A DNA stretch of 64,000 nucleotides from positions 22,700 to 86,699 of the forward strand of contig NZ_JAMZGM010000007.1 of the NCBI RefSeq assembly GCF_024158605.1, written 5' to 3'. The notes beneath the pieces are model-generated. The model was not told where the DNA came from, did no database searches, and saw nothing but the letters and a program-made list of their open reading frames with translations. The translations under genes and the position numbers were made by a program. Source of the DNA: Sebaldella sp. S0638 (GTDB lineage Bacteria; Fusobacteriota; Fusobacteriia; Fusobacteriales; Leptotrichiaceae). Positions 10,524 through 54,394 of this stretch are shown in pieces; within the stretch, counting starts at the first letter, position 1; the number at the start of each line of letters is the position of its first letter.

Positions 10524-11450
10524 TTACATTTTTAGTTCTTCAATTGTAATGTTTCCAATGAATTCCTTCACATCTTCAGGAATTACTTTTCCTGTTTCCA
10601 TGCTTTGTGCATTCGACATACCGCACGCCATGGATAATTTCAGTATTTCATGTAATTCCAGCCCGTCATCCAGACCCTTTGCAAAACCTGCCACTGAAGA
10701 ATCTCCCGAACCTACGGTATTATGTATTTTAATTTTTGGAATTGTAATTTTCAAAATCTCCTCGCCAAAATATATTGCTCCTTCTCCACCCAGAGATACA
10801 AGAACATTTTGTGCTCCCAGATTTTTAAGTTTTTCCACTGCTTTTTTTATTTTATCTCTTCCGTCTATTGATTCTCCCAGAACATATTCCAGTTCGTCAA
10901 AATTAGGCTTTATAAGATACGGTTTTCCTTTGACACCTTCCAGCAGCGATTTCCCGCTTGTATCAAGTATCACTTTTTTTCCTTTTCTATTTACCATTTC
11001 CACAAGTTTTTGATAATATCCGGCATCCATTCCTTTTGGAAGACTTCCTGACATTGTTATTACATCTGACTTTTCCACAAGCTCCATGAATTTTTTCTCA
11101 AAAGCTCTCAGATCAGAATCAGGCAGTTCTTCTCCAGATTCCAGAATTTCAGTTTCCGAGTGTTTTGCCAAAACGGCAATACACACTCTTGTCTCAGACG
11201 ACGATACATAAAAACCTTCTTTTATATTCATCTTTTTCAGATTTTCCTGTATCCATTCACCATTTTTCCCGCCTAATATTCCTGTGGCAACAACATTAGC
11301 ATCCAGTTGTTTTAGTACCTTTGTCACATTCAGACCTTTTCCGCCCGGACTTTTTATAGTCTTCTCAGCTCTGAAAAGTCTGCCTTCCTTAAAGTCTTCT
11401 ATAAAATATCTTGTATCTATAGCCGGATTTAATGTTACTGTAGTAATCAT
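10524..11450 (-). CDS. PfkB-family tagatose-6-phosphate / 1-phosphofructokinase-type kinase (308 aa)
   Basis: This belongs to the LacC/FruK branch of PfkB kinases: TLNPAIDTRY at the N-terminus, SPGGKGLNVTKVL (substrate-binding Gly-Gly-Lys-Gly), SGSLPKGM, and the anion-hole/catalytic motif NTVGSGDSSVAGF with its Asp base. In a galactitol operon the expected reaction is ATP-dependent phosphorylation of tagatose 6-phosphate to tagatose 1,6-bisphosphate, the substrate of the GatY aldolase encoded immediately upstream. 1-Phosphofructokinase cannot be excluded from sequence alone. It is the last gene of the operon, 10 bases after gatY, and is followed by a terminator. Confidence 0.85.
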   Translation of the reverse strand: MITTVTLNPAIDTRYFIEDFKEGRLFRAEKTIKSPGGKGLNVTKVLKQLDANVVATGILGGKNGEWIQENLKKMNIKEGFYVSSSETRVCIAVLAKHSETEILESGEELPDSDLRAFEKKFMELVEKSDVITMSGSLPKGMDAGYYQKLVEMVNRKGKKVILDTSGKSLLEGVKGKPYLIKPNFDELEYVLGESIDGRDKIKKAVEKLKNLGAQNVLVSLGGEGAIYFGEEILKITIPKIKIHNTVGSGDSSVAGFAKGLDDGLELHEILKLSMACGMSNAQSMETGKVIPEDVKEFIGNITIEELKM

Positions 11451-11460
11451 TTCTCCTCCT

Positions 11461-13346
<1,886 letters not shown>

Positions 13347-13385
13347 ATTATGTCACTCTCCTATTCTATGTATATAATTTAACGG

Positions 13386-13492
13386 GCTGTATAAAAATAG
13401 AATTGCTTTTTATACTTAATGCCGGTATTTCCTGATAAAACAGATAATTTATAATATCCGGCATTAATTTATAAAATCTATTTTGATACAGC
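13386..13492 (-). repeat. Nested inverted repeat between gatC and gatD
   Basis: The outer arms (13386-13404 and 13474-13492) pair over 19 positions with three mismatches. The inner arms AATGCCGG/CCGGCATT (13418-13425 and 13458-13465) pair perfectly and extend a little. Neither arm is followed by a T-run on the minus strand, so this is not a simple terminator. It probably folds in the operon mRNA and may stabilise the upstream PTS message or be a processing site. Confidence 0.6.
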
Positions 13493-13515
13493 TCCTGTTT
13501 ACTTACTTTATTTAA

Positions 13516-14901
13516 TTAAGCTTGTGCTCCTTCTAATCTGTCTTTTCTCTGAAGCATTTTATATCTTCTGTATGTCATTGCTATTCCAATGAAGTAAATT
13601 ACTGCTATTACCAATAAGCCCACCATATTTCTTCTTTGGAAAATCTGTACCATTATGTACGTAATTGGTGATCCGCCTTGATCCAGTGATCCTACAAGAG
13701 ATTTATCCCCAAGCATATTTGCATTCTTTGCAAGTATTGTCTGTAATTCCACTGTCTGGTTTGATATCCATATTGTAATAAACATAATGAAAGAACCTGA
13801 TATTAGTGTTCTGAAAATATTTCCATGGTGGATTGCCACACCCATTGCTATGAAGAATCCTATTGTAGCCAGATCTCCGAAAGGCAGAACTCTGTTACCG
13901 AATGTAAGTGATCCTATTGCGGCTATTATTACTGTTAACGGTATAAATAACAGTCCTGCTGAAATTACGTTTGCATCTCCTAATAATAATGCCGGATCAA
14001 GACCAATAAGGAATTCTCCTCCGCCGAATTTTGCTGACAATTTTTCTCTTGCAGCTTCTGATATAGGTAATAATCCTTCCATAATAGGCTTTATTACTTT
14101 TGGCATCAAATACATAACTGCAGAAACTGAAACTGCAAGCTGAAGTACTTGTTTTACATCATACCCTGCAAGGATTCCTACTATTATACCAAGTATAAAT
14201 CCTACTATTATCGGCTGTCCGAAAGCTCCCAGTTTTTTCTCAAGCTTTTCTGTATCAATATCTATTTTATTTATTCCTGGTATCTTATCAAGAATAGCAT
14301 CTACTATTACCGCAAATGGCGCACAATATGCAGAAGTTCCGTGTGGTACCGCGATTCCTTCCAGACCGAAATAATCTCTTGTATCGTACTGGAACCAATC
14401 CCCGAACTTATATGAAAACACGGCATGTACTACTACACCAAGTATCCCCAGCCAGTAACTTCCTGTAACTATATGTACCAATGCTCCTGTAAAAGTCATA
14501 TGCCAGATATTCCATATATCTACGTTAACTACTTTTGTCATCTTTAACGCAAGCATAATAAGGTTTACTATAATTGCTACCGGTATTGCTACTATTGCTA
14601 TCTTCGATGCCCACGTCATCGGTGCTGTTCCGGGCCATCCAAGATCAATTACCGTAAGATTCAATCCAAAATTTTCAGCCATTTGTTCTGCTGCTGGCCC
14701 TAAAGTATCTCTCATCAAACCAATTACTATTCCTATACCTATGAATCCTATACCTATCATAAGACCGGCATTAAAAGCCTTTCCTAATTTCAAACCTAGA
14801 CATAATGCAAAAACAATTATTACTAACGGCAGCATTACGGCTGGTCCTAAGGCCAATATGTACTGTATTGGCGGTGTTATCAGATTTAAAAAATTATCCA
14901 T
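13516..14901 (-). CDS. gatC: PTS galactitol transporter, membrane subunit IIC
   Basis: A polytopic membrane protein of 461 residues with about ten hydrophobic segments: GPAVMLPLVIIVFALCLGLKL at the N-terminus, YFGLEGIAVPHGTSAYCAPF in the middle, and FGGGEFLIGLDPALLLGDAN later. These match the GatC (SgcC) family of galactitol-type EIIC permeases. It moves galactitol across the inner membrane while GatB~P phosphorylates it. IIA and IIB are separate genes immediately upstream, the E. coli gatABC arrangement. Confidence 0.92.
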   Translation of the reverse strand: MDNFLNLITPPIQYILALGPAVMLPLVIIVFALCLGLKLGKAFNAGLMIGIGFIGIGIVIGLMRDTLGPAAEQMAENFGLNLTVIDLGWPGTAPMTWASKIAIVAIPVAIIVNLIMLALKMTKVVNVDIWNIWHMTFTGALVHIVTGSYWLGILGVVVHAVFSYKFGDWFQYDTRDYFGLEGIAVPHGTSAYCAPFAVIVDAILDKIPGINKIDIDTEKLEKKLGAFGQPIIVGFILGIIVGILAGYDVKQVLQLAVSVSAVMYLMPKVIKPIMEGLLPISEAAREKLSAKFGGGEFLIGLDPALLLGDANVISAGLLFIPLTVIIAAIGSLTFGNRVLPFGDLATIGFFIAMGVAIHHGNIFRTLISGSFIMFITIWISNQTVELQTILAKNANMLGDKSLVGSLDQGGSPITYIMVQIFQRRNMVGLLVIAVIYFIGIAMTYRRYKMLQRKDRLEGAQA

Positions 14902-14923
14902 GTTATAAACTCCTCCTAGTTTA

Positions 14924-15388
14924 TTAAATTAAATTTTGTTTTAGTAGTGTCATTACTTCTTCTACATCATTAGAATCATATATTTTTTTCAGAACATCTT
15001 CTTTTTGGTATAACTCCACTAATTTCATCAGGAAATCCAGATGTTTTTCAGAGTCCTTTACAATCAGTCCGAATATAATTTTGGAATTTACTATTCCGTC
15101 ATCCTCGGCATTCTCGAATTCTACTCCTTTTTTTGTAGTTACCACAAACATTGCATTGTCATTCACATGCTTTGCTTCCACATGAGGCATCGCTACCTGC
15201 ATATAGCCGAGATCAATTCCTGTGGGAAAATTTTCTTCCCTTTTTAATATCTCTTCGATGTAAACTGGTTTTACCATTCCTTTTTCAATTAAAACTGTTC
15301 CGATTTCGTTAAACATTTCTTCTCTGTCGGAAAAATCCCTGTTTAGATAAATGAGATCCCCGTAAAAATTCATTTCTATTTTGACCAT
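14924..15388 (-). CDS. gatA: PTS galactitol IIA component
   Basis: A cytoplasmic EIIA of the fructose/mannitol fold (154 residues). The phosphorylatable His lies in QVAMPHVEAKHV. It passes phosphate from HPr to GatB. The start at 15388 sits 7 bases after the gatB stop behind an AGGAG, and gatC begins 22 bases after its own stop, so all three are translated as one unit. Confidence 0.88.
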   Translation of the reverse strand: MVKIEMNFYGDLIYLNRDFSDREEMFNEIGTVLIEKGMVKPVYIEEILKREENFPTGIDLGYMQVAMPHVEAKHVNDNAMFVVTTKKGVEFENAEDDGIVNSKIIFGLIVKDSEKHLDFLMKLVELYQKEDVLKKIYDSNDVEEVMTLLKQNLI

Positions 15389-15395
15389 CTCCTGT

Positions 15396-15674
15396 TTACT
15401 TTAATATTTCAAGTATTTTTGCTTTTAATGCATCCTGATTTATTCCTGAAATAAATCCCATTACATGCACTACAGGTACACTTCCCATATCTTTTGAAAA
15501 TTTTGAAGTAGTAGCTATTAATGCAGCACCGTCAGCATAAGATTCTATTTCATTTATTCTGCACTGAACCAAATCTATGGCTATTCCATTTTCCTCACAT
15601 AACTGCTTAATTTTATTCGCTGCCACAGTTGATGTTGCCACTGCACCTCCGCAGGCTACTATTACCTTTTTCAT
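15396..15674 (-). CDS. gatB: PTS galactitol IIB component
   Basis: A small EIIB of 92 residues with the phospho-cysteine loop near the N-terminus (VIVACGGAVATSTVAANKI, Cys8), typical of the lactose/galactitol EIIB fold. It receives phosphate from GatA and donates it to galactitol bound to GatC. First structural gene of the operon, 13 bases after the DeoR regulator. Confidence 0.9.
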   Translation of the reverse strand: MKKVIVACGGAVATSTVAANKIKQLCEENGIAIDLVQCRINEIESYADGAALIATTSKFSKDMGSVPVVHVMGFISGINQDALKAKILEILK

Positions 15675-15687
15675 TTCTTTACCTCCA

Positions 15688-16434
15688 CTATATATTTATT
15701 ATTTTTATTATTTTTTTATATTCCTTCAATACTTCCTGCTTTAAATTCCCGTCGGTTATTATCCCGTCAAGGTTTTCCACTTTGAAAAAAGAATAAAAAG
15801 CTTCTTTATTAAATTTTGAACTATCCAGAAGCAGAAATTTTTCTTTTGCATTTTCCATTACTATCTGTTGTATTAATCCCTCGTCATAATTGGAGATTGT
15901 CACTTTATTTCCGCTTACTCCGTTTGCTCCTATAAAACATTTATCCACATTTATCTTGCTTATAGAATCCAGAAAATAGTCAGGAATAATTGCTTCTGTT
16001 TTTCTTCTGAGTCTTCCTCCTGTTACCACAAAGTCCAAATCCAAATGCGAATACTTTACCATTACAGAATATGAATTAGTAACTACTATTACATTTTTTG
16101 CCTTTATAAATTCAGGAATTCTTTCTGTTGTCGTTCCCGGCGCTATAAATACAGTCTCATTATCCTGTATATAAGAGGCTGCTATTTTGGCAATATGCTC
16201 TTTTTCTTTCATATATTTGACTTTTCTGTCATCGTAGAGTTTTTCCTGCTGGATTTTTTTTATACTTTTAGCTCCTCCGTGAATTCTTATAAGCAATTTT
16301 TTGTCTTCAAGGTACTTCAGATCACGTCTTATTGTCATCTCTGTTACATTTAATTCTTCTGTAAGTTCCAGAGTAGATACTATACCTTTCTCTTTTATCT
16401 TGCTTAATATCACCTCTATTCTCTGATCTTTCAT
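15688..16434 (-). CDS. DeoR-family repressor of the galactitol operon
   Basis: 248 residues. The N-terminal winged helix (STLELTEELNVTEMTIRRDLKYLEDKKLLIRIHGGA) is the DeoR signature. The C-terminal sugar-phosphate-sensing domain carries FIAPGTTTERIPEF and the GANGVS segment. It is the first gene of the operon it presumably controls, so it is autoregulated. The effector is probably a phosphorylated intermediate such as galactitol 1-phosphate or tagatose 6-phosphate, by analogy with GatR-type regulators. Confidence 0.88.
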   Translation of the reverse strand: MKDQRIEVILSKIKEKGIVSTLELTEELNVTEMTIRRDLKYLEDKKLLIRIHGGAKSIKKIQQEKLYDDRKVKYMKEKEHIAKIAASYIQDNETVFIAPGTTTERIPEFIKAKNVIVVTNSYSVMVKYSHLDLDFVVTGGRLRRKTEAIIPDYFLDSISKINVDKCFIGANGVSGNKVTISNYDEGLIQQIVMENAKEKFLLLDSSKFNKEAFYSFFKVENLDGIITDGNLKQEVLKEYKKIIKIINI

Positions 16435-38419: not shown

Positions 38420-39792
38420 ATGAATACATTTATAAACTTAATGGGAAATTTTAAAAAAACTGAAAAAAATGCCCAGCGTATAAGAGTTCATTAGATCCGC
38501 TTACTGATTTATTTTTTTTAGTCCTTTATTACAGACAAGACCAGTCTAAACTAAACGATCTGTTAAAGAAAATAATAGAAAAACACGGTGAAAAAACAGC
38601 ACTCAAAGCTATTTTTGCTTTAAGAGATCCTAGAGGCGGGATGGGTGAAAGAGCTGTTCCTAAAAAATTACTGTATCATCTGGCTGATACTTCTCCGGAT
38701 CTTATAGTAAAAAATCTGGATAAAGTTGTCGAATACGGCAGAGTAGATGATCTTCTAGTTTTACTTGACACTAAAATTGCCGAACAAACAGCTTTTTTCA
38801 TAAAAAATAATATTGAAAAAAATCAATTATTCTCTAAATGGCTTCCAAGAGATAACAAATCTTTAAAAAATTATGCATATATTCTTATGAATTACTGGAA
38901 AATGAAACCAAAAGAATACAGAAAATTCATAACACAAAATAATAAAGTAGTGGAAAGTCAGATGACTGCTAATAAATGGCATGAGATTGAATATGAAAAA
39001 GTACCTTCAAGAGCTGCAATTATATACAGGAATGCATTTTCAAGACATGATAATTCAAGATATACTATCTATCTGGAAGATGTTTCCAATAATAAAGCTA
39101 AAATAAATACATCTGTATCAACACCAAGTGACATTATTTTGAAAATATTTAAGAATTCTTATGATACTACTCTTGAATTAGCATGGAAAAATCTAAAAGA
39201 TTTTGCACCTGATATCAGTTATCTTCCTGTTATAGATGTAAGTGGTTCTATGTATAATTTAAGCGATAGTATTTATCACGCTTTAGCATTAGGTACTTAT
39301 TTTGCACAGAGAAATAAATCAGATTTCAAGGATATTTTTCTGACATTCTCTGAAAATCCGGAATTTGTAAAATTACAAGGAGATAATCTTTTAGAGGTAT
39401 TGAATAATCTAAAAAGAGCTGCATGGGGTTATACTACAAATATAAATAAAGTTTTTGAATTAATTTTGAATACTGTCAAAGCTGGTGCAAATACAGAAGA
39501 TCTTCCCAAAAATATTCTTATTCTTTCGGATATGGAATTTGATGCCGGAGTAAATACAGTTACTAATTTTGATACATGGGAAAGGGAATTTTTAAAGCAT
39601 AATATTAAACTCCCTCAGATAGTATTCTGGAATCTAAATACTAGAAATATGACTTTCCCGGTAACTATGCATAATAATGGAACTATTCTTTTATCAGGAT
39701 ATAATCCGCAAATGCTGGGAATGCTTAATAATGTATCTGACCCTGTACAATATGTACTCTCATTTATAGAGAAATTTTCCATAAATGAATAA
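38420..39792 (+). pseudogene. DUF2828 / Ro60-like vWA protein gene with an early -1 frameshift
   Basis: An ATG at 38420 (AAGAGGTG upstream) opens MNTFINLMGNFKKTEKNAQ but meets TAG at 38492. From about 38476 the -1 frame is open to 39792 and reads AYKSSLDPLTDLFFLVLYYR, then ALRDPRGGMGERAVPKKLLY, the DUF2828 N-terminal signature. A helical-repeat region follows, then a vWA domain with the MIDAS motif VIDVSGSMYNLS, TFSENPEF, WGYTTNINKVF, LILSDMEFDAG. One missing base near 38475 restores KNAQAYKSSL, the family pattern. A programmed -1 shift at the A7 run (A-AAA-AAT, 38463-38470) is an alternative. The domain layout parallels Ro60 (helical ring plus vWA). A tRNA-like RNA array follows directly. 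Confidence 0.8.
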
Positions 39793-39844
39793 ACTTATTT
39801 TTTGAACATAATAATCAAAAAAATAAAACAAACATTAAATTTTC

Positions 39845-39873
39845 TTGATATAATTAAATATATATAGTATAAT
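39845..39873 (+). promoter_or_regulatory. Sigma-70 promoter of the tRNA-like RNA array
   Basis: TTGATA (39845-39850), 17-base spacer, TATAAT (39868-39873). The predicted start is near 39881, which is precisely the first base of RNA unit 1. No ribosome-binding site or frame follows, so the product is an RNA. Confidence 0.75.
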
Positions 39874-39882
39874 TAACATTGT

Positions 39883-39992
39883 AGACAGCTAACAGCAACT
39901 AATTGATATTCCAGACCGGAAGTGCAGGTGCGAGTCCTGCCGTCGAAAGACGTGGTTTAAATAATAGTGCGCCGGTATTCAAGATGCTGTCT
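39883..39992 (+). ncRNA. tRNA-like / Y-RNA-like unit 1 (110 nt)
   Basis: Closed by the 7-bp stem AGACAGC (39883-39889) / GCTGTCT (39986-39992). Inside come the conserved TAACAGCA, a stem ACCGG (39915-39919)/CCGGT (39972-39976), and then a tRNA T-arm GCAGG-TGCGAGT-CCTGC (39924-39940) with a seven-base loop. Adjoining it is a short stem CGTC-GAAA-GACG (39941-39952) in the place of an acceptor stem, sealed by a tetraloop. No protein frame. The order T-arm then capped acceptor stem is that of a circularly permuted tRNA, as in bacterial Y RNA (YrlA) effector modules. Confidence 0.75.
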
Positions 39993-39999
39993 GTAAAAT

Positions 40000-40113
40000 A
40001 GATAACTAACAGCATATATTTCTAAAGGATTAAAGGGTCGCAGGTTCAAGTCCTGCCAGTTGGAAACAACTGTAGCTCAGAGAAAGAGTATTTAATATGA
40101 AAAACTGTTATCT
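40000..40113 (+). ncRNA. tRNA-like / Y-RNA-like unit 2 (114 nt)
   Basis: Closed by AGATAAC (40000-40006) / GTTATCT (40107-40113), then the shared TAACAGCA. T-arm: GCAGG-TTCAAGT-CCTGC (40040-40056), with a canonical TTCAAGT loop. It continues directly into CAGTTG-GAAA-CAACTG (40057-40072), an acceptor-like stem capped by GAAA, and then TAGCTCAG (40073-40080). Positions equivalent to U8, A9 and the D-stem GCTC close with GAGT (40086-40089). This is a clear permuted tRNA: T-arm, capped acceptor, D-arm, with the outer Y-type stem where the anticodon arm would be. Confidence 0.8.
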
Positions 40114-40120
40114 GAAAAAT

Positions 40121-40172
40121 AGACGACTTACAGCAAACCAAATTTGAATATTCCAAATTCTTAAGGTCGTCT
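40121..40172 (+). ncRNA. Minimal unit 3 of the RNA array (52 nt)
   Basis: Closed by AGACGAC (40121-40127) / GTCGTCT (40166-40172), followed by TTACAGCA, the same conserved octamer with one change. The tRNA module is absent; a hairpin AATTTG/CAAATT (40141-40146 and 40154-40159) fills the unit. It keeps only the outer stem and octamer, that is, the part expected to contact the Ro-like protein. A terminator follows 21 bases later. Confidence 0.65.
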
Positions 40173-40193
40173 GGATTATATTTATTAATAAAG

Positions 40194-50339: not shown

Positions 50340-50657
50340 CTACCAAATTTTAACTACTCTGCCAAAAATATTCTTTTTTTTAATCCATCCATTTACAAAC
50401 TTATGATTATTTGAAATCTGATATTCAATATATCCGTTTTTATTTCTTATCCCTGATATTAAATGAGTATAATAATTCCCTTTTACTTTGCAAAATACAA
50501 TCTCATTTATTTTCAGTTCCGTCTCATCAGTCACCGGTTCCAGTGTAACGGGCTGATTTGACTTTAATATTGGCAGCATAGAATTTCCCGCTTCTTTATA
50601 CTTCTCTATCATCTGACCCTTCGTAAGTAAAGAAGCAACAAAACTTGCCTTCGACAT
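50340..50657 (-). CDS. S24/S26-like peptidase-domain protein (105 aa)
   Basis: A small LexA/signal-peptidase-fold protein: EAGNSMLPILKSNQPVTLEPV has the G-x-S-M-x-P nucleophile motif, and IVFCKVKGNYYTHLISGI the second strand. At the general-base position there is a His (THLI) rather than the usual Lys, as in archaeal/ER-type Ser-His signal peptidases. No DNA-binding or membrane segment, so it is neither a LexA repressor nor a normal leader peptidase. RBS AAAGGAGGA. Confidence 0.65.
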   Translation of the reverse strand: MSKASFVASLLTKGQMIEKYKEAGNSMLPILKSNQPVTLEPVTDETELKINEIVFCKVKGNYYTHLISGIRNKNGYIEYQISNNHKFVNGWIKKKNIFGRVVKIW

Positions 50658-51762: not shown

Positions 51763-52785
51763 TTACCATTCAGATAATTTATAATCTTTCAAAAACACAC
51801 CTGTTACTGGCTTTTCTGTATCTTTCCATTCAAATACCGGATGTGTTATCCTTGCTGCACTATCATAAAAATCCAGCGGCATTTTTCTTATTTCATTATT
51901 CCATTCCGCGGGAAACTGGTTTGATACCCAGCCCGGGTCTACGCTGTATAAAACAATATCCGATTTTCTATATTCCCTTGACAGAGTCTTTGTCATCATA
52001 TTCAGGGCAGCTTTTGCCATATTAGTATGCGGATGTGCTGAAGATTTTCTTTTTATATTAAATTTCCCCTCTATTGACGAAACATTTATGACGAATTTAT
52101 TTTTATGACTGCCTGCCTCCAAAAGATTTTTTAGTGCAGTGGTAAGCAGATAAGGTCCTACACTATTTATTATCTGTACTTCCAGCAGGTCTCTTATCGA
52201 TATGTCCTGACTGTACTTTACCCAATTATTCTTATTATTTTCACCATAAAAATTTTCAATAGACGTATTTTGAAGCAGATTCTCTATTTTCCCCAAAGTA
52301 TGATTCAGAGGAATCAGTTTATCCTTATCTTCTAAATACAACTTTCTTTCTATTTCTATCTGTTCTAAATAACCCTTCTCATCTTTTACCGTTAAAGCTG
52401 CATTATTTATCAAAATATCCAAATGTTCAAATTCTTTATACAACGATTCCAGAAAATAATGAATTTCATTAAAATCCAGCATATCCAGATGCTTTATATG
52501 CAGTCTTTCAGCCCACAGTTTATAATCTTCTTCCTTTTGATACTCTTGTAATGCACTGTATGGAAAACGACTGGTCACAATTACTTCTGCTCCGTTTCTC
52601 AGCAATCTTAAAGCTGTGTAATATCCGATTTTTATTCTTGCACCGGTTACTAATGCAATATAACCCGTCAGATCTTCTGATTTATTTCTGTTATAAAAAT
52701 TCATATCCCCGCATTCAGGACACATATCCAGATAAACATTGTGAGAAAATTCTATTATATTCTGACAGCAATAACATTTTTTCAT
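51763..52785 (-). CDS. Zinc-ribbon short-chain dehydrogenase-like protein without catalytic Tyr (340 aa)
   Basis: The ATG at 52785 follows TGGAGTGG. Residues 1-35 form a zinc ribbon (CYCC ... CPEC). The Rossmann domain has LVTGARIKIGYYTALRLLRNGAEVIVTSR (TGxxxxIG, NADP-type Arg after the second strand), LDILINNAAL (NNA), and VINVSSIEG (the catalytic Ser). At the YxxxK site the sequence is HPHTNMAKAALNMMTKTL: Lys is kept but Tyr is Thr, and the HPHTNMAK motif looks deliberate. It lies right behind two tRNA-like RNA genes. Whether it is an oxidoreductase or a nucleotide/RNA-binding derivative is open. Confidence 0.8.
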   Translation of the reverse strand: MKKCYCCQNIIEFSHNVYLDMCPECGDMNFYNRNKSEDLTGYIALVTGARIKIGYYTALRLLRNGAEVIVTSRFPYSALQEYQKEEDYKLWAERLHIKHLDMLDFNEIHYFLESLYKEFEHLDILINNAALTVKDEKGYLEQIEIERKLYLEDKDKLIPLNHTLGKIENLLQNTSIENFYGENNKNNWVKYSQDISIRDLLEVQIINSVGPYLLTTALKNLLEAGSHKNKFVINVSSIEGKFNIKRKSSAHPHTNMAKAALNMMTKTLSREYRKSDIVLYSVDPGWVSNQFPAEWNNEIRKMPLDFYDSAARITHPVFEWKDTEKPVTGVFLKDYKLSEW

Positions 52786-52803
52786 AAATCCACTCCATAT
52801 TCT

Positions 52804-52944
52804 AAAAAAACGAGGAGCATGCTTTCGCATGCTGTCTCCTGCGTGATATTCAGGTGCTTTAAAATTAAGCTACTCTCGTTGTACAGCAGGCTTTTACCTG
52901 CATCTCCCTTCGTGCTAAAGGGTATTTTCATTAAACTATTGTAC
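52804..52944 (-). ncRNA. Double-cloverleaf tRNA-like RNA, copy A (141 nt)
   Basis: Read on the minus strand from 52944. First cloverleaf: acceptor GTACA/TGTAC (52940-52944 and 52881-52885), U8-A9, D-arm GTTT-AATGA-AAAT (52924-52936), anticodon-like arm CCCTT-TAGCACG-AAGGG (52906-52922), variable AGAT, T-arm GCAGG-TAAAAG-CCTGC (52886-52901). Second: acceptor AACGAG/CTCGTT (52875-52880 and 52809-52814), U8-A9, D-arm GCTT/AAGC, anticodon-like arm CCTG..CAGG with loop holding T33/A37-like positions, T-arm replaced by GCATGC-GAAA-GCATGC. The end is a T-run. Own promoter at 52951-52959. Confidence 0.75.
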
Positions 52945-52950
52945 TTTAAT

Positions 52951-52959
52951 AATATATCA
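52951..52959 (-). promoter_or_regulatory. Extended -10 promoter of tRNA-like RNA copy A
   Basis: Minus strand TGATATATT (TGN-TATATT); the first base of the acceptor stem (52944) is seven bases downstream, so the RNA would begin exactly at the cloverleaf. Confidence 0.55.
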
Positions 52960-53025
52960 TAGTTTTATTAATAATTAAATTATAAATTAAATTATCATAC
53001 TTTATTAAAATTTATTTTGTGCCCT

Positions 53026-53166
53026 AAAAAAACAAGGGGCATGCTTTTGCATGCCATCTCTCACTTAGCAGGTAAGTGCTTTAGATTTAAGCTACTCTTG
53101 TTATACAGTGGGACTTCACCCACATCTCCCTTCGTGCTAAAGGGTATTTTCATTAAACTATTGTAC
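53026..53166 (-). ncRNA. Double-cloverleaf tRNA-like RNA, copy B (141 nt)
   Basis: Same length and layout as copy A, 222 bases upstream in transcription. The first 44 nt are identical to A. After that the stems vary with compensation: T-stem GTGGG/CCCAC (53108-53123) where A has GCAGG/CCTGC; second acceptor AACAAG/CTTGTT (53097-53102 and 53031-53036) where A has AACGAG/CTCGTT; anticodon-like stem CACTT/AAGTG with a seven-base loop. The last hairpin is GGCATGC-AAAA-GCATGCC, then CCTTG and seven T. Own extended -10 promoter. Confidence 0.75.
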
Positions 53167-53172
53167 TTTCAC

Positions 53173-53181
53173 AATATATCA
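53173..53181 (-). promoter_or_regulatory. Extended -10 promoter of tRNA-like RNA copy B
   Basis: Same TGATATATT as for copy A, with the same seven-base distance to the acceptor stem at 53166. The upstream flank TTATTAATAAAACTATGA is also shared between copies. Confidence 0.55.
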
Positions 53182-53266
53182 TAGTTTTATTAATAAGTAA
53201 ATTTTTTTATTTTATAAATATATTATTTTTGCATAATCAGAACCACATCCAATTCCCCAAAGGAAA

Positions 53267-53860
53267 TTATAACATTTTCAATTTAACAAGCCATTCTTTT
53301 ATTGCATTATCAGCATTATTTATATTTGATGATTGAATAATAAGGTTTTCAAGAACTTTAGCATTTGGAGCTAATTTTTTCAGTTCTGTCATACTGTTTC
53401 CAAAAGTACCGCTCTCGCTTGTATAAAAAGGAACTACTGTTTTTCCTGACAGATCATACTCACTTAAAAATGTAAGAACCGGAGGCGGTATAGTTCCTCT
53501 CCATATAGGATGACCTATAAAAATAGTATCATATGTATTTATATTATCAATTTTTGTACTTAACGCCGGAAGAATATGTTTATCCTGTTCTTCCTGAACC
53601 CTTTCAGTAAGCAGACCGTAATCAGCGGGATATTCATCTGCAAGCTTGATTTCAAGAATATCTCCGCCAACATTTTTCTGTATCAGCTCTGCTGCTGTTT
53701 TTGTAGTTCCTGAATGAGAAAAATAAACTATAAGAATCTTTCCTTTTCCTGTGCTGTTTTGGTTCTTATCTGCCATATTAGCTGCTGTAGTGTCAGCATT
53801 ACAGGATATAAATAACACCAATGCAATTAATGTTATTAATAGTACACGTATTTTTTTCAT
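53267..53860 (-). CDS. Flavodoxin-like lipoprotein (197 aa)
   Basis: N-terminal lipoprotein signal (LVLFISCNADT; Cys20), a short linker, then a flavodoxin fold: GKILIVYFSHSGTTKTAAELIQ (FMN phosphate loop SHSGTT), IFIGHPIWRGTIPPPVLTFL (isoalloxazine loop) and FYTSESGTFGNSM. Extracytoplasmic flavodoxins of this type occur beside aldo/keto reductases and small lipoproteins, as here. Probably a membrane-tethered FMN electron carrier or reductase partner. Confidence 0.85.
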   Translation of the reverse strand: MKKIRVLLITLIALVLFISCNADTTAANMADKNQNSTGKGKILIVYFSHSGTTKTAAELIQKNVGGDILEIKLADEYPADYGLLTERVQEEQDKHILPALSTKIDNINTYDTIFIGHPIWRGTIPPPVLTFLSEYDLSGKTVVPFYTSESGTFGNSMTELKKLAPNAKVLENLIIQSSNINNADNAIKEWLVKLKML

Positions 53861-53956: not shown

Positions 53957-54394
53957 TTATATAATCCTGCATTGCTTTAATACTACCCAGTCGTCAGTTC
54001 CTAAAATATGAAATTCTCCGGAAACACTGACTTTATCTCCCACGGATAATTTATTCATCGAATCATATGATGGAAATACACACAAAACATAGCTTGAACC
54101 GGTCTTTGAATCAGATAGTTCAATTGAAGGAAGACTATGTATATCCGGCCCTTTATAAGTAACTACTCCTGATACCTCTACAGATTTTCCGGTATAGGTT
54201 TTTTCTGCCTGTACTTTATTTTTATGAAAAACATCAAGTAAATCATATGCACTGATTATTTTTTCCGCTGACTCTTCTTTATATATCCCGGTATCACTTT
54301 TTGATAATTCCGGACTTTTTCTGTCACCTTTACTGCATGCAAGATAACTAAGACTTACTGCCATTATTACAACAACGGTTATTACTCTTTTCAT
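53957..54394 (-). CDS. Lipoprotein with tRNA_anti-like OB fold (145 aa)
   Basis: The ATG at 54394 with CAGGAGG is preferred over a longer frame from 54448. Lipobox LSYLACSKG. The mature protein has an OB-fold of the tRNA_anti-like group: KTYTGKSVEVSGVVTYKGPD, YVLCVFPSYDSMNKLSVGDKVSVSGEFHIL. Despite the family name, exported members do not act on tRNA; they probably bind a small ligand or another envelope protein. Same strand as the flavodoxin and aldo/keto reductase genes. Confidence 0.78.
   Translation of the reverse strand: MKRVITVVVIMAVSLSYLACSKGDRKSPELSKSDTGIYKEESAEKIISAYDLLDVFHKNKVQAEKTYTGKSVEVSGVVTYKGPDIHSLPSIELSDSKTGSSYVLCVFPSYDSMNKLSVGDKVSVSGEFHILGTDDWVVLKQCRII

Follow-up and report, generated by a model that had tools for sequence, protein, structure and literature searches.

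Two tandem copies of a putative RNA gene, each built of two tRNA-like units, lie directly upstream of a gene for a zinc-ribbon SDR-like protein in Sebaldella sp. S0638, and comparison of loci from other bacteria gives good support to the conclusion that tRNA-like RNAs of this kind and the SDR family belong together. Genes resembling tRNAs are packed against relatives of the SDR gene in a subset of loci, frequently in back-to-back pairs as in the window, by which we mean the whole analyzed stretch of 64,000 nucleotides. The elements considered below, in window coordinates, are the following.

53173..53181, minus strand: extended –10-like element TGATATATT of copy 2, consensus match only
53026..53166, minus strand: RNA copy 2 (upstream copy), 141 nt, GTACA through T-run
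53103..53166, minus strand: copy 2 unit 1, three-helix tRNA-like, weak D-arm
53031..53102, minus strand: copy 2 unit 2, tRNA-like cloverleaf (RF00005 match at 53031–53101, 33.8 bits)
53026..53055, minus strand: copy 2 terminator-like hairpin (the T-arm) and T-run
52951..52959, minus strand: extended –10-like element TGATATATT of copy 1, seen in the sequence and not flagged by the promoter scan
52804..52944, minus strand: RNA copy 1 (adjoining the SDR gene), 141 nt, GTACA through T-run
52881..52944, minus strand: copy 1 unit 1, three-helix tRNA-like, weak D-arm
52809..52880, minus strand: copy 1 unit 2, tRNA-like cloverleaf (RF00005 match at 52809–52879, 28.8 bits)
52804..52833, minus strand: copy 1 terminator-like hairpin (the T-arm) and T-run
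51763..52785, minus strand: zinc-ribbon SDR-like protein, 340 aa, directly downstream of the RNA copies
50340..50657, minus strand: small S24/signal-peptidase-like protein, weak family matches only

The copies are 82% identical (157-base query), and the tandem arrangement given in the preliminary description, two copies of equal length with a 222-base period, is confirmed: both are 141 nt long and lie 222 bases apart on the minus strand. A gap of 18 bases separates the T-run of copy 1 from the SDR start codon. Each copy ends with seven T, and terminator-like sites exceed the expectation in this region (four on both strands vs. 0.2 in shuffled sequences), with one per copy on the minus strand, in agreement with the T-run terminators proposed earlier. 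The promoter proposed along with them, an extended –10 common to the copies with a start seven bases on, is only partly borne out. The element TGATATATT precedes both copies, and GTACA begins at the seventh base after it in each, but promoter matches in the region are near background (six vs. 4.5 expected), and the scan flagged the element of copy 2 and not that of copy 1. In a DNA similarity search of 100 related genomes, the copies yielded only short matches outside their own genome (the best of 29 bases, E = 2.4e-4).

Copies 1 and 2 differ in 27 of 135 alignment columns, and the drawn pairs are formed in both of them without exception (36 of 36), six pairs being changed on both sides and two on one side, giving G–U, in line with the compensated stem changes noted initially. 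With the substitutions scattered in 20,000 trials, 29.6 pairs were kept on average, the probability of keeping 36 was 5e-5, and six compensated pairs were never reached. Sliding of the pairing partners abolishes the covariation signal, with the caveat that the structure was drawn from these same sequences. As read off the alignment, 11 of the 27 differences fall within the 17 columns of the second-unit anticodon arm, and the first-unit anticodon arm is identical between the copies. For copy 1 (fold z = –4.50), the minimum-energy fold coincides with the drawn structure except for the first D-arm, while the preferred fold of copy 2 (z = –3.08) is paired differently at the D and anticodon arms of the second unit.

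Both units had been described as complete cloverleaves, which is not confirmed for the first unit. Rfam RF00005 (gathering cut-off 29) matches unit 2 of copy 2 with 33.8 bits, scores that of copy 1 just below the cut-off with 28.8 bits, and has no match to the first units of either copy. When the latter are searched with a model of the SDR-linked tRNA-like genes, they reach 12.3 and 11.9 bits (E = 0.00045 and 0.0006 in 421 bases), and their D-arm, said to resemble those of real tRNAs, is unpaired in the computed folds of both copies. Hence "complete cloverleaf" is too strong for the first unit, which has more of a tRNA mimic with three helices and a poor D-arm. The T-loops are indeed short, six bases in unit 1 and four bases in unit 2; a seven-base loop of the TTCRA kind is absent, and neither copy encodes CCA. 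A check with a tRNA-detection program, as had been suggested, was made with ARAGORN, which reports no tRNA gene in the 64-kb window.

The downstream gene encodes a CxxC..CxxC ribbon and an SDR domain. Its product is predicted to have the classical SDR fold (pLDDT 83.5, pTM 0.86), and VIA-align and Foldseek retrieve many SDRs and nothing indicating RNA binding. Still, the family differs from classical SDRs not only in the added zinc ribbon. The Gly-rich loop is TGxRxKIG in all 86 aligned rows (TGxxxGIG in classical SDRs). The places of the catalytic Ser and Tyr are assigned by the motifs of classical SDRs; the Tyr place is occupied by Thr in 86 of 86 rows (TxxxK vs. the classical YxxxK, the active-site lysine being kept), a count that is partly circular or biased, since some rows were collected with an HPHTNMA search pattern, and the Ser place is Ala in 80 rows and Ser in six, including the window protein. 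An additional 88–131 residues precede the ribbon in 52 of 85 relatives, if the longest upstream ATG is taken; the window protein is devoid of this part, which is Lys- and Arg-rich in the eight sequences viewed. These features are more easily reconciled with an RNA-binding or sensing role than with a plain redox one.

Of the related genomes, 99 besides that of the window, none gave a match to the window SDR (E up to 1e-30), and single-sequence queries of genome contigs, viral contigs and phages gave none. Full-length homologues are present on plasmids of Deinococcus, Streptomyces, and Tsukamurella, and one viral contig also encodes a homologue. Of at least 329 relatives in genomes, the loci of the best 80 were taken, and the set scanned with ARAGORN and covariance models comprised 85 SDR loci.

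Application of ARAGORN to these 85 loci, prior to any model building, revealed that some of them have tRNA-like genes closely packed with the SDR gene. A covariance model (R1) was trained on 33 tRNA-like genes seen by ARAGORN and unit 2 of both window copies, and matches within 700 bases, 300 allowed for the N-terminal part, were considered as being near the SDR. A covariance search around SDR relatives, as proposed in the preliminary description, identified 35 such matches, distributed over 16 loci and without exception on the SDR strand, vs. 2.9 expected (P = 6e-26), and 16 matches in the remaining 790 kb. The R1 count is not independent, as the model was trained on most of its matches; the ARAGORN finding is. 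Eight of the 16 far matches belong to L050, L075, L083, and L090, those in L090 being upstream of a second SDR copy (L140), and L090 is counted as the 17th linked locus. No linked tRNA-like gene was detected in the other 68 of the 85 loci.

For independent tests, fresh loci were fetched by SDR alignment alone. In Flavobacteriaceae (the family of genome G108), six of 397 genomes have the SDR (E up to 1e-135), the seed being one of them, and tRNA-like genes are present in all five fresh loci, with eight of them in L149. In Streptomycetaceae (the family of G109), the E-value limit was set at 1e-140 so as to select the linked clade, and with it 96 of 249 sampled genomes have the linked-type SDR; 21 of the best 27 fresh loci have matches (E up to 1e-4; L211 weakly) and six have none, and all 55 tRNA-like matches are on the SDR strand. 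Such genes were also found in two of 13 fresh loci from Armatimonadota (the phylum of G104) and at one of seven second SDR copies, and none was detected in one fresh locus from Bacteroidales (the order of G106). On the SDR tree (86 rows, the window row being on a very long branch with an unsure place, and L090 being represented by its unlinked copy), the linked label requires six changes vs. 16.7 when shuffled, and none of 500 shuffles was as low.

In the 71 linked or neighboring tRNA-like genes, 94.3% of cells are paired. The covariation is 0.933 vs. 0.269 in shuffled data; the alignment was fitted to the model, and covariation of this sort is expected of anything tRNA-descended.

In 15 of 24 loci (25 sources, i.e., 24 loci and the window), the distance between neighboring tRNA-like genes does not exceed 30 bases, and gaps as small as 0 and 1 occur. 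Pairs are seen, e.g., in L041 (twice), L043, L046, L071, L080, and L090, and single or wider-spaced genes in L030, L034, L035, L040, L048, L049, L050, L145, and L154. The locus L041 has two copies of a pair upstream of the SDR, that is, the architecture of the window in another phylum; the first members of its pairs differ at four of seven anticodon-loop bases, and the second members are identical. As pairs are present in SDR loci of other phyla, pairing is a recurrent architecture, which agrees well with the early reading of the window as twin RNA genes of two consecutive tRNA-like units. In a 20-kb Flavobacteriaceae stretch (L163), 16 of 19 R1 matches form two clusters at 10575–16036, one of them directly downstream of the SDR. 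The genome G108, which has SDR-linked mimics, also contains a large ordinary-looking tRNA array with many isotypes (L194, contig C21, approximately 1466200–1477500).

The gene content around the SDR differs between linked and unlinked loci. A gene encoding an LRR protein is found downstream of the SDR in eight of 17 linked loci (in L030, just a 72-residue piece matched), as well as in L114, which was counted as unlinked and whose record stops short of the upstream side; RtcB, a 220-residue protein (p220), or DUF434/DUF5616 precede the SDR in L037, L046, and L048. Considered jointly, the partners LRR, RtcB, p220, and DUF434 are present in 11 of 17 linked loci vs. one of 68 unlinked loci, L114 (Fisher test, 6e-9). 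Among the best 27 fresh Streptomycetaceae loci, LRR genes are found in the available flanks of 13 of 21 with tRNA-like genes, and of none of the six without.

RtcB shares a cluster with the SDR in L037, L048, and L162. The directon of L162 is comprised of genes for an S24-like protein, RtcB, an unassigned ORF, DUF434/DUF5616, an RNase T-family exonuclease, p235, and the SDR, followed by a tRNA-like array; a gene for a WYL regulator is oriented away from it. The partners RtcB, DUF434/DUF5616, and the exonuclease are those of Bacteroidota, the exonuclease being seen in this one operon examined. In the window genome, RtcB is not adjacent to the SDR but encoded elsewhere, and its loci have no tRNA-like neighbor in the stretches scanned. 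The small S24/signal-peptidase-like protein at 50340–50657 has homologues near the SDR in L162 (the S24-like protein; 52%, 84 residues) and L046 (41%, 86 residues). Four further small minus-strand genes of the window have no homologue in 95 loci at E up to 1e-5. In L050 (7073–10545) and L083 (8310–11711), genes for an AAA ATPase and its neighbor, in L083 a VWA-like DUF2201 protein, follow the SDR on the other strand, and farther on, both loci have one more tRNA-like gene. The second gene upstream of the window RNAs (53957–54394, minus strand) encodes a tRNA_anti-like protein (PF12869), which is probably unrelated. Among the proteins scanned, PADLOC gave only a DEDDh exonuclease model and weak coiled-coil matches (a window neighbor, E ≥ 0.024). 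Retron-, CRISPR-, and toxin-antitoxin-like readings were rejected, as the subset of proteins scanned contained no such effector.

Bacterial Ro60 (Rsr) and Y RNA are encoded in an rsr-yrlBA-rtcBA operon, and the tRNA-like part of YrlA has been proposed to act as a competitive inhibitor (PMC7790460). The systems are alike in having a tRNA-mimicking ncRNA beside a protein partner and RtcB in some genomes, and differ in that here the partner is a zinc-ribbon SDR and the RNA consists of two tRNA-like units. The YrlA model RF02553 does not match 52700–53300 at E up to 10, and Ro60/TROVE (PF05731) has no match in the window genome at E up to 0.001. With the tRNA gene clusters and arrays of bacteria and archaea (PMC6333295), the loci share tandem tRNA or tRNA-like genes, but here a single protein family is associated with them, the D-loop is unusual, and U33 is lost in about a quarter. 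The literature searched, with few subscription papers and no bioRxiv preprints in it, does not describe tRNA-like RNAs that are linked to an SDR or arranged in tandem. Burroughs and Aravind (NAR 2016) reportedly described RtcB RNA-repair systems with a new molecule that is tRNA-like and tied to SPFH/Band-7 proteins. Those systems resemble ours in the linkage of a tRNA-like ncRNA to RNA-repair genes, while the SDR partner sets ours apart, and the Pfam Band-7 domain is absent from the 20 neighbor and SDR proteins scanned. The two sets of tRNA-like molecules may overlap.

The window contains a second tRNA-mimic module, approximately 12.6 kb from the twin RNAs, where a DUF2828/DUF7788 gene, presumably linked to Ro60, precedes three units that resemble Y RNA and have closing stems (38641–40175, plus strand). 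YrlA RF02553 matches at 39999–40117 with 39.4 bits (E = 4.5e-7), below the cut-off of 69, and CUUACAGCAA in the third unit also occurs in the class I RNA family of Dictyostelium, whose model gives 24.2 bits (cut-off 41.5).

As tRNA look-alikes are packed next to SDR relatives in distant bacteria, sometimes together with RNA-repair genes, we favor an RNA–protein system over ordinary tRNAs. The RNAs could be noncoding tRNA mimics that act with the SDR-like protein in tRNA-damage sensing or repair, a proposal based on sequence and analogy that we regard as having an even chance of being correct. Both RNAs would be transcribed from their own promoters, and the SDR, no longer an ordinary oxidoreductase, would serve as a subunit with a Rossmann fold that binds RNA or senses nucleotides. 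The mimics and the SDR would form an RNP, as Y RNAs do with Ro60, and this particle would sense or repair cleaved tRNAs, the mimics being bait, competitor, or scaffold for tRNA-cutting nucleases and RtcB. Sensing or repair of cut tRNAs is favored because of the analogy with the Ro60–Y RNA–RtcB operon and the repair genes in L037, L048, and L162.

The linked genes might instead be real accessory tRNAs, perhaps cleavage-resistant, of which the window copies are decayed versions. This bears on their tRNA character, for which we compared ARAGORN structures of 58 tRNA-like genes from 22 linked loci (a few of them away from the SDR, and six with an anticodon loop of other than seven bases) with 40 different ordinary tRNAs from three genomes. 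Many traits are indeed those of tRNAs: RF00005 recognizes the second units of the window (33.8 and 28.8 bits, cut-off 29), U33 is retained in 43 and the seven-base anticodon loop in 52 of the 58, anticodons are varied, and one such genome has a large ordinary-looking tRNA array elsewhere. By a loose test, CCA is encoded at a similar frequency in both sets (14 of 58 vs. nine of 40 ordinary tRNAs) and fails to separate them, so its lack in the window, used initially as an argument against decoding, is not diagnostic. Moreover, U33 (37 of 51), a purine at 37 (44 of 51), and the normal T-loop (GUUC; 66 of 71) are often kept in linked tRNA-like genes, and some of these may therefore be charged or decode. 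On the other hand, U33 is missing in 15 of 58 and present in all 40 ordinary tRNAs, and the GGT D-loop is found in four of 58 vs. 29 of 40. The window units, viewed earlier as probably not decoding tRNAs, have no normal T-loops, the first units have no D-arm, and stem upkeep by compensation would not result from decay. We consider the accessory-tRNA explanation unlikely.

The terminator-like end of copy 1 directly before the SDR start, and tRNA-like genes directly upstream of the SDR in L041, L071, L083, and others, would also fit a cis-acting leader, with copy 1 being not a separate RNA but an attenuator or autoregulatory tRNA mimic controlling the SDR. This seems to us quite unlikely, as tRNA-like genes directly downstream of the SDR, seen in L037, L043, L046, L048, and L145–L149, could not have a leader role at those loci, and copy 2, further upstream, has a terminator-like end of its own. 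The Rossmann fold and the retained active-site lysine, in turn, leave some room for tRNA-dependent chemistry, in which a group loaded onto the mimics, by charging or otherwise, would be the substrate of the SDR, but the replacement of the Tyr place in 86 and of the Ser place in 80 of 86 rows, the lack of CCA in the window copies, and the families recurring in at least four loci, none of which appeared synthetase-like by eye, make it highly improbable.

Returning to mimics acting with the SDR-like protein, a tentative and rather doubtful extension is that of a widespread bacterial RNP, in which tandem mimics, their anticodon arms being variable, would bait or sense tRNA-cutting nucleases, the catalytically altered SDR would provide the readout, and the outcome would be coupled to RtcB repair or to LRR proteins. 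In any case, a protein family annotated as oxidoreductases is now tied to ncRNAs that tRNA finders label as odd tRNAs. Should the RNA and the protein assemble into a particle, another protein platform for tRNA-mimic RNAs would stand next to that of Ro60 and Y RNA, and there would be a testable model of how damaged tRNAs are detected or handled in bacteria.
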